Part shown: positions 18,176 through 57,527 of the stretch, one piece after another
How the letters are laid out: each line of letters opens with the position of its first letter
Position numbering within the stretch: the first letter of the stretch is position 1
NCBI GenBank assembly: GCA_902578305.1
Contig: CACHCK010000003.1
Span: 130,492 to 194,491, forward strand
DNA from: an uncultured Pelagibacteraceae bacterium
Lineage (GTDB): Bacteria; Pseudomonadota; Alphaproteobacteria; Pelagibacterales; AG-422-B15
DNA: 64,000 bases
Direction of reading: 5' to 3'
Notes under the pieces: model-generated
The model's input: only the letters and a program-made list of their open reading frames with translations
Told to the model about the DNA's origin: nothing
Database searches by the model: none
Translations under genes and position numbers: made by a program

Positions 18176-19021
18176 ATGTTTTCATATGTAAATGGGTCAT
18201 ATATAGACTATAAAGATGCCAAAGTTCATATCGAAGACAGGGGATATCAATTTGCCGATGGAGTTTATGAGGTATTTGCTGTTATAAATAAAAAGATTGT
18301 CGACTATGATGGTCACTTAAACAGATTATATAGATCATTAAATGAAATATCTTTAAAATCACCAATTGTAAAAGATGCTTATTTATTTCATTGTAGAAAT
18401 TTAATTCGAAAAAATAAAATAAAAGATGGATTAATTTATTTGCAAATATCAAGAGGAGTAGCTCAAAGAGATTTTAAGTTTCCAATAAATATTAAACCCT
18501 CACTAGTAATTACTGCCAAGAATGTATCAATGGAAAGTTACAATTCAAAGTTTAATACTGGAATTAAAGTTAAAACTACTGAAGATTTAAGATGGAAGAG
18601 AGTCGATATTAAAACCCTTAACCTTTTACCACCAGTCTTAGCAAAACAAAAAGCAGTTAATAATGGTTGCGATGAAGCATGGATGGTTGATGATGATGGG
18701 TATATAACTGAAGGTAGTTCTAGTAATGCATGGATATTAATAAATGATAAATTAATAACCACTCCAGCCACTACATCAATTTTAAAAGGAATAACAAGAA
18801 CATCCCTTATTAAGGCTTTGAAGAAAAAGAAAATTAAATTAATTGAAAAAAAATTTGGTAAAAAAGATATTAAAAATGCAAATGAGGCATATATAACAAG
18901 TGCTACACAGTTCGTTATGCCTGTTGTAAAAGTAGACAATATAAAAATAGGTAATGGTAAAGTCGGTAAATATGCTTATATTTTTAAAGATGCTTATATG
19001 GAGGCAATACAATTAAAATAA
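18176..19021 (+). CDS. dat: D-amino-acid transaminase-like class IV aminotransferase
   Basis: PLP fold type IV aminotransferase of 281 residues; the branch next to trkA and hfq in rhizobia is annotated D-alanine aminotransferase. Seen: VHIEDRGYQFADGVYEV at the start, the lysine-containing segment DIKTLNLLPPVLAKQKA (about 146-162, PLP lysine in the middle), and EGSSSNAW. It would move amino groups between D-alanine and D-glutamate, feeding peptidoglycan; branched-chain or aminodeoxychorismate activity cannot be excluded from sequence alone. Its 3' end carries the ribosome-binding site of hflX, and the two genes overlap by ten bases. Confidence 0.85.
   Translation: MFSYVNGSYIDYKDAKVHIEDRGYQFADGVYEVFAVINKKIVDYDGHLNRLYRSLNEISLKSPIVKDAYLFHCRNLIRKNKIKDGLIYLQISRGVAQRDFKFPINIKPSLVITAKNVSMESYNSKFNTGIKVKTTEDLRWKRVDIKTLNLLPPVLAKQKAVNNGCDEAWMVDDDGYITEGSSSNAWILINDKLITTPATTSILKGITRTSLIKALKKKKIKLIEKKFGKKDIKNANEAYITSATQFVMPVVKVDNIKIGNGKVGKYAYIFKDAYMEAIQLK
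19000..19004 (+). promoter_or_regulatory. Shine-Dalgarno that sets an AUU start for hflX
   Basis: GGAGG inside the last codons of dat, seven bases before an in-frame ATT at 19012. No ATG, GTG or TTG lies in this frame between the upstream stop at 18985 and the conserved N-terminal region of HflX, so the strong site at ideal spacing points to ATT as the initiation codon. Confidence 0.65.
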
Positions 19022-20085
19022 GAAATAAAGATAATTGTTTTATAGTTCACCCATCATTAAATGATGAACCATTATACAAATCGAAGGAACTAATTAACGA
19101 AATTCAAAATTTAGCTAATAACCTTGATATAATTATATCCGCTAAACGTATTACCAAAATTAGAAAAGTTAATTCGGCAACAATGCTTGGGAAAGGTGTC
19201 TTAGCTGAAATACTTGAAACTATAATTTATAAAAAAATAAATCTCTTAATTGTAAATTCTACTTTATCACCAAGGCAACAAAAAAATCTTGAAGACAATT
19301 TAAGGGTAAAGGTTATTGATAGAACAGGTATTATACTAGAAATATTTTCTAAGAGAGCCAAATCAAAAGAAGGTAAATTGCAAGTTGAGCTTGCTGACCT
19401 TATATATAGAAAATCAAGATTAGTAAGAGCATGGACTCACCTTGAAAGACAAAGGGGAGGGACAACCTTTATTGGCGGGCCTGGAGAGCTTCAAATAGAA
19501 TTAGACAGAAGATTAATTCAGGAAAAGATAACGAGGATAAAGAACAGTTTAAAAAAAGTAAGAAATAGAAGAAATCAGCAGAGAAAGTTAAGAAAAAAAT
19601 CAAATTTCAAAACATTTGCATTAGTTGGTTATACAAACGCTGGAAAGTCTAAATTATTTAATCGCCTTACAAAGAAAAATCAGTCAAGTAAAAATGTTAT
19701 GTTTGAAACATTAGATACTAAAACAGGCAGGGTACATTTGGGAAAAAATATCTATGTTGGAGTTATTGATACTGTCGGCTTTATTAATAATATTCCGACA
19801 CAATTAATAGAGTCATTTAAAGCAACACTCGAAGAATTAACTTATGCTGACGTTTTAATAAATGTTATTGATGTATCAGATATTGATTATAAAAATAAGG
19901 AAAAGATTACAATTGAAACTTTAAAAATGGCTAATGTTTGTGAGTCTAAAATTAATAAAATGATTACTGTTTATAACAAAGTTGATCTTAGCCCTTACTC
20001 TCATGATTCAAAAAAGCTAAATTTTATAAGTGCATATACTGGTGATGGGATTGAAGAGTTTAAGTCAAGCTTAATTAATTATTGA
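19012..20085 (+). CDS. hflX: Ribosome-associated GTPase HflX, probable AUU start
   Basis: GTPase that splits or rescues stalled ribosomes. G-domain motifs are clear: Walker A GYTNAGKSKLFN, DTVGFI and NKVD; the N-terminal glycine-rich region has LVRAWTHLERQRGG and GGPGELQIELDRR. The first in-frame ATG (19183) falls inside the conserved ATMLGKG motif, so starting there would cut the N-terminal domain. The frame is open upstream and encodes matching sequence (FIVHPSLND) back to ATT 19012, which has GGAGG seven bases before it. That gives 357 residues, a normal bacterial length. Convergent with the next gene by seven bases. In rhizobia hfq stands between dat and hflX; here there is no room for it. 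Confidence 0.92.
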   Translation: MKIRNKDNCFIVHPSLNDEPLYKSKELINEIQNLANNLDIIISAKRITKIRKVNSATMLGKGVLAEILETIIYKKINLLIVNSTLSPRQQKNLEDNLRVKVIDRTGIILEIFSKRAKSKEGKLQVELADLIYRKSRLVRAWTHLERQRGGTTFIGGPGELQIELDRRLIQEKITRIKNSLKKVRNRRNQQRKLRKKSNFKTFALVGYTNAGKSKLFNRLTKKNQSSKNVMFETLDTKTGRVHLGKNIYVGVIDTVGFINNIPTQLIESFKATLEELTYADVLINVIDVSDIDYKNKEKITIETLKMANVCESKINKMITVYNKVDLSPYSHDSKKLNFISAYTGDGIEEFKSSLINY

Positions 20086-56693: not shown

Positions 56694-57527
56694 ATGTCAA
56701 TTTTAAGCGTCATATTATTTTCAGCAATATTGCATGCGTCTTGGAATGCTTTCATAAAAAATAAAGGTAATGGATTTGCGAAGATGGTTATCTTAGCAAC
56801 GATTATTGCTCTATTTATGGTGCCTTTATTATTTTACGTTGGCCTGCCCTCTTCTACTGCAGCAATATATTTATTTTTTGGAGTCATTGCCCATACAATG
56901 TACATGCACTCATTAACAAGAGCATATGCTATAGAGGATTTTTCGGTCGCTTATCCATTTGCAAGGGGTCTTGCACCCTTACTAACAATTTTGATTTTAA
57001 TATTTATCTTAAACAAAACAATTTCATTAAATGAAATCATAGCAATTGGAATAATTATATCAGGTATTTTTGTGCTTTTTATCGGTAAAAGTTTCAGCTT
57101 AGATTATAAAAACGTATTGGCCTTATTATATTTTCCAGTATCTATAACGTTTTATACTTTAGTTGACTCATACGCAGTGAAAACTGTCGAAAGTTCAATG
57201 CAGTATATTGTATGGCTATTTTTTTTGATGCCTATTCCAATTCTGCTTTATTCTATAAGCAATCAGCGTAATTTATTGGTAACAACATTCACAGAAAACA
57301 AGTTTCCACTGATTATTGCTGCAATTGGCTCTGTAACCTCGTACTCACTTGTTCTTTGGGCATATACACAAGCACCAATTCACTATGTCGCTTCAATAAG
57401 AGAGAGCAGTATAATATTTGCCTCACTAATCGGATTATTATTTTTTAAAGAACAAGGGTTAAAGAGAAGGCTTGCTGCGGCTGTTATTTTGTTTATAGGA
57501 GTTTTCTTATTAGAATACGTATCATAA
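56694..57527 (+). CDS. EamA-family (DMT) transporter
   Basis: A 277-residue membrane protein with ten predicted segments in two EamA halves. HASWNAFIKNKGNG at the N-terminus and EDFSVAYPFARGLAPLLT in the first half are markers of this branch. Likely exporter of small metabolites; no substrate can be given. It starts one base after the stop of the PNPOx-like gene, forming an operon SDR-PNPOx-EamA. Converges with the aquaglyceroporin gene with a ten-base gap. Confidence 0.88.
   Translation: MSILSVILFSAILHASWNAFIKNKGNGFAKMVILATIIALFMVPLLFYVGLPSSTAAIYLFFGVIAHTMYMHSLTRAYAIEDFSVAYPFARGLAPLLTILILIFILNKTISLNEIIAIGIIISGIFVLFIGKSFSLDYKNVLALLYFPVSITFYTLVDSYAVKTVESSMQYIVWLFFLMPIPILLYSISNQRNLLVTTFTENKFPLIIAAIGSVTSYSLVLWAYTQAPIHYVASIRESSIIFASLIGLLFFKEQGLKRRLAAAVILFIGVFLLEYVS

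Follow-up and report, generated by a model that had tools for sequence, protein, structure and literature searches.

The gene encoding HflX in this Pelagibacterales genome, which belongs to a family of tiny SAR11-related bacteria of the ocean, raises the question of where its translation begins. In the window (the whole stretch of 64,000 nucleotides that was analysed, contig 3 positions 130492-194491 in a genome of 1.24 Mb) the hflX frame stays open between 18988 and a TGA at 20083-20085 and holds no ATG, GTG or TTG between 18988 and 19183, where the first ATG falls within the ..NSATMLGKG.. stretch of the protein. The original prediction had described this frame correctly, had claimed that conserved coding sequence precedes 19183 and had proposed as the start codon an ATT at 19012 with GGAGG exactly 7 nt upstream, coordinates that were confirmed here (Table 1). 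AUU has been recognised as the start codon of only a few genes. The proposal is supported by the present analysis: judged from the sequence of the gene and of its relatives, hflX of this lineage very likely initiates at AUU 19012, because no canonical start is available, the codons ahead of 19183 are under coding constraint, the signal is frozen in relatives, the Shine-Dalgarno sequence is strong and a survey of the genome points to the same gene. A point absent from the prediction is that the start site lies inside dat (18176-19021).

Table 1. Features of the dat-hflX region (window coordinates)
Feature	Position	Strand	Remarks
hflX coding sequence from the proposed AUU	19012..20085	+	357 codons plus TGA (20083-20085); TIGR03156 and Pfam
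Proposed AUU start codon (ATT)	19012..19014	+	ATT in 24/24 genomes with GGAG(G); no in-frame NTG before 19183
Shine-Dalgarno GGAGG	19000..19004	+	7 nt before AUU; -9.3 kcal/mol; Glu codon GAG in 24/24
dat-like D-amino-acid transaminase gene (PRK06680)	18176..19021	+	NF005209; hflX initiation signal in 3' end
dat/hflX overlap, 10 nt	19012..19021	+	From sequence; some overlap retained in ATT relatives
First in-frame ATG of hflX, internal to conserved domain	19183..19185	+	Not the start

Results

The product read from 19012 exceeds the curated cut-off of TIGR03156 (GTP_HflX) over its full length (366 bits against a cut-off of 217, residues 10-354 matching profile positions 3-347 of 351), and contains the Pfam domains GTP-bdg_N, GTP-bdg_M and MMR_HSR1. 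The gene upstream scored 368 bits against NF005209 (cut-off 320). Its product ends in YMEAIQLK, encoded by the final codons ATG GAG GCA ATA CAA TTA AAA TAA with the stop at 19019-19021, and both the GGAGG and the ATT of hflX are found inside this 3' end. Translational coupling across the overlap is likely. As hflX is in the -1 frame relative to dat and open across the overlap, a Dat-HflX fusion produced by -1 frameshifting can also be imagined. However, inspection of the overlaps revealed no slippery heptamer of the X XXY YYZ type that is kept, and what is kept instead is a Shine-Dalgarno sequence with the spacing of a start, so that a fusion is highly improbable.

The ATG at 19183 is the first canonical start of the frame and the one that gene finders would pick; in the window species they are expected to shorten HflX by 57 residues. 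Nevertheless, a short HflX from this codon is very hard to sustain, since it would cut into the N-terminal domain (GTP-bdg_N, residues 27-112), the codons upstream evolve as protein, and no Shine-Dalgarno sequence precedes 19183 (pairing of -1.7 kcal/mol). The coding constraint was measured in 8 genomes from the HflX group nearest to the window (82-100% identical to it), the hflX of G018 being left out on account of a two-codon deletion. Codons 5-57, which lie past the dat stop and ahead of ATG 19183, gave a dN/dS of 0.10 in frame versus 0.97 and 2.27 when the frame was shifted, and codons 58-350 gave 0.06 in the same genomes. By this comparison codons 5-57 are under purifying selection, which agrees with the conserved coding sequence that had been claimed ahead of 19183.

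The relatives compared were single-cell and metagenome genomes labelled Pelagibacteraceae or Pelagibacterales. A clear HflX (E < 1e-100) was found in 34 of the 97 genomes searched, every one of them in family f1. ATT stands exactly four codons past the GGA codon in 24 genomes, the window's included, which span the genera g1, g3 and g4 with HflX identity down to 56-58%. The Shine-Dalgarno sequence in these genomes is GGAGG (20), GGAGAG (3) or GGAGTC (1), placed 7-8 nt before the ATT. None of the 24 has a canonical start at the ATT or upstream of it, and the canonical codons found deeper in hflX vary in place, none being aligned with the start or common to all. The comparison with relatives that the prediction had called for therefore bears it out. 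A wrong base or a faulty assembly at 19012-19014, for which the prediction had asked that reads be checked, could be carried by one genome alone but is excluded because the same codon recurs in independent assemblies from separate cells and bins; its probability is negligible.

The same comparison bears on whether hflX starts at another nearby codon, for instance ATA 19018, or by spread re-initiation, in either case through termination-reinitiation from dat. The dat stop is only a few nucleotides past the ATT and coupling is common among overlapping genes. However, the one codon retained in 24/24 genomes is the ATT lying 7-8 nt past GGAG(G), and the codon at 19018 is ATA, GTA, ATC, AGA and others in the relatives, which makes this explanation unlikely.

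A g1 clade of 8 genomes has neither GGAGG nor ATT and shares a TTG that overlaps the TGA of dat, the overlap being TTGA. Close to the aligned N-terminus of HflX, ATG or TTG is present in two g2 genomes, and a further g2-like record (L043) has a GTG start candidate. A maximum-likelihood tree of HflX was built with the start region excluded from the alignment, and in it the TTG clade forms one nested group (support 100/99) and g2 is the sister. Because of this topology, the simplest history would be that ATT is ancestral to g1, g3 and g4, having been gained once and replaced once by TTG, in a clade from which the GGAGG was lost as well.

Some observations on genome content were made alongside. 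In the sister family f2 (G053-G096) none of the 44 near-complete genomes gave a match of HflX quality; hflX seems to be absent from f2 while retained in f1. Window positions 1-32000 share approximately 67-95% identity with contig 2 of G026 and most of the remaining window 92-99%, which suggests that the region including hflX is mosaic or fast-recombining. At approximately 56700-57400 G026 carries about 16 kb extra (C2 77946-94062), an apparent variable island.

The C-terminal residues of Dat (Y-M/L-E-A/S-x-x-L) are themselves conserved at the protein level. This accounts for some of the DNA conservation at the hflX start and therefore had to be separated from conservation of the start signal. 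Among the 6 Glu residues of Dat that are invariant in the 24 ATT genomes, only the one in the Shine-Dalgarno sequence is encoded by GAG in all 24; the other 5 are mixed or mostly GAA, although 26% of Glu codons are GAG. Similarly, of the 10 invariant Leu residues only the one from which ATT takes its TT is encoded by TTA in 24/24, although 42% of Leu codons are TTA. In 9 divergent representatives 11 of 98 columns are codon-invariant, two of them being the signal Glu and Leu and the remaining 9 being rich in A and T, for example TTT, AAT and GAA. This comparison of sequences shows selection acting on the GGAG(G) and ATT nucleotides.

The genome sequence was taken in stretches totalling 0.79 Mb. 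The 3' end of its 16S rRNA carries GGATCACCTCCTT. The pairing of the hflX Shine-Dalgarno with the anti-Shine-Dalgarno (-9.3 kcal/mol) ranks among the strongest 1.1% for 522 genes, whose starts were taken, approximately, as the first canonical codon. For these genes the median pairing over the upstream 15 nt is -1.1 kcal/mol and GGAGG is found upstream in 1%; infC reaches -8.8 kcal/mol. A simple fold of the hflX start region gave weak structure (-6.0 kcal/mol). The pattern GGAGG-N7-ATT by itself does not discriminate, with 40 copies in the genome; the hflX instance goes beyond chance because of its fixed in-frame N-terminal place in 24 species, the frozen dat codons and the strength of its Shine-Dalgarno. 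A pseudogene was also considered for hflX, and was rejected on the starts of the relatives, the frozen dat codons, dN/dS, the HflX tree and Shine-Dalgarno strength.

When the 597 genes common with G026 were ranked by the number of aligned codons before the first canonical start, hflX came first with 65 codons, the count beginning at the upstream stop, and infC second with 53. By these alignments the two are the largest real cases among the 597 genes. The other candidates inspected were rejected, being open frames ahead of an ordinary ATG, frames of antisense appearance or sequence too nearly identical to be informative. In family f1 infC has the arrangement AAGGAG-ATTAAA-ATA or a close variant, with no ATG, GTG or TTG near the start; the ATA pattern, at a spacing of about six nt, was found at loci L121 (G000:C5), L116, L118-L120, L122 and L123. 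From this arrangement the infC of the family appears to start at AUA, which points to autocontrol by IF3.

Discussion

The proposed mechanism is that the GGAGG inside the 3' end of dat would place 30S subunits on AUU 19012, probably assisted by ribosomes terminating on dat a few nucleotides downstream. The fMet-tRNA would then decode AUU, giving a 357-residue HflX with the N-terminus fMet-Lys-Ile-Arg. The output of hflX is expected to be low, about one tenth of that from AUG in comparable reporters. As IF3 would discriminate against AUU, HflX could be expected to rise as free IF3 drops. Non-canonical starts are subject to repression by IF3 (PMC5472188), and in E. coli re-initiation becomes less frequent when more IF3 is supplied (PMC2268962); for these reasons both termination-reinitiation and AUU initiation should be sensitive to IF3. 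Moreover, a link to IF3 would be physiologically sensible because HflX acts under stress to split 70S ribosomes, whose subunits IF3 keeps apart (PMC9067457). The link, which the prediction had also suggested, is plausible in that it fits the published biology of IF3 and the apparent AUA start of infC in this clade, and the chance that it is used biologically is put at slightly under even.

The AUU could also be a start with no regulatory meaning, the overlap with dat forbidding NTG at the right spacing and the strong Shine-Dalgarno compensating for it. NTG at 19012-19014 followed by A would create TGA in the dat frame, since a T to G change at 19014 turns TTA into TGA. In addition, the Dat Leu is conserved as protein in the ATT and TTG clades alike, and the clade with a different overlap (TTGA) uses TTG. 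However, in the window's clade an A to G change at 19020 would convert the ATA of 19018-19020 to ATG, providing an AUG together with a TGA stop for dat, and it occurs in none of the relatives. This absence weakly favours selection for AUU, but the 13 nt spacing would be poor. The non-canonical start of infC in the same genomes, together with the control of infC by IF3 known elsewhere, also speaks against an AUU devoid of regulatory meaning, an explanation that nevertheless has a substantial chance, if less than half, of being correct. Overlapping genes can, in any case, lock in rare start codons.

If regulation by IF3 is favoured, hflX and infC might together form a minimal IF3 regulon with near-cognate AUU and AUA starts and Shine-Dalgarno sequences of the strongest class, in a genome that makes hardly any use of Shine-Dalgarno sites; the regulon is tentative, and rather less than an even bet. 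Were it real, a shortage of free IF3 would raise IF3 itself as well as the ribosome splitter HflX, and the fidelity control exerted by IF3 would extend from autoregulation to ribosome recycling in highly streamlined ocean bacteria.

Literature searches, with most subscription journals outside their scope, found nothing on an AUU start in hflX, and nothing was found on non-AUG starts in Pelagibacter. Rare start codons may be a recurrent feature of hflX in Alphaproteobacteria. Several Rhodobacteraceae hflX genes were seen with no convincing canonical start, having CTG (L078, L092, L093, L098 and L103) or ATA in its place (L074 and L104); these codons overlap the stop codon of the preceding gene, which appears to be hfq, and mostly lie behind a GAGG-like sequence.

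Comparison with known systems

AUU starts are already known (infC, pcnB, Borrelia pncA and, presumably, lepA) and hflX would be an addition to them, notable for the depth of its conservation and for its pairing with infC. According to papers cited in PMC1780047 and PMC5472188, infC and pcnB of E. coli start at AUU and IF3 represses the AUU of infC. They share the start codon with hflX, and infC is likewise related to translation, as is HflX, whose E. coli homologue has ribosome splitting activity (PMC9067457). However, the gene is a different one, its start overlaps an upstream gene and the dependence on IF3 is here a proposal. In Streptomyces the GTC start of sigR is repressed by IF3 (PMC5472188); this is also a stress gene with a conserved non-canonical start and a conserved strong ribosome-binding site, although the codon is GTC and not ATT, the gene is another and the effect was shown experimentally. 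In S. aureus cvfC1 (AUU), ccpN and infC (AUA) have extended Shine-Dalgarno sequences and about 10% of the output of AUG (PMC13009471). An exceptional conserved Shine-Dalgarno directs the non-canonical start there as is proposed for hflX, whereas those cases, in other genes and another phylum, have ribosome profiling and reporters behind them. Finally, pncA of Borrelia starts at AUU and its annotation had been shortened at a later start (PMC13398362), and lepA, encoding a ribosome GTPase, regains its full length only if AUU is taken as the start; the lepA cases are isolated, whereas the AUU of hflX is kept in 24 genomes.
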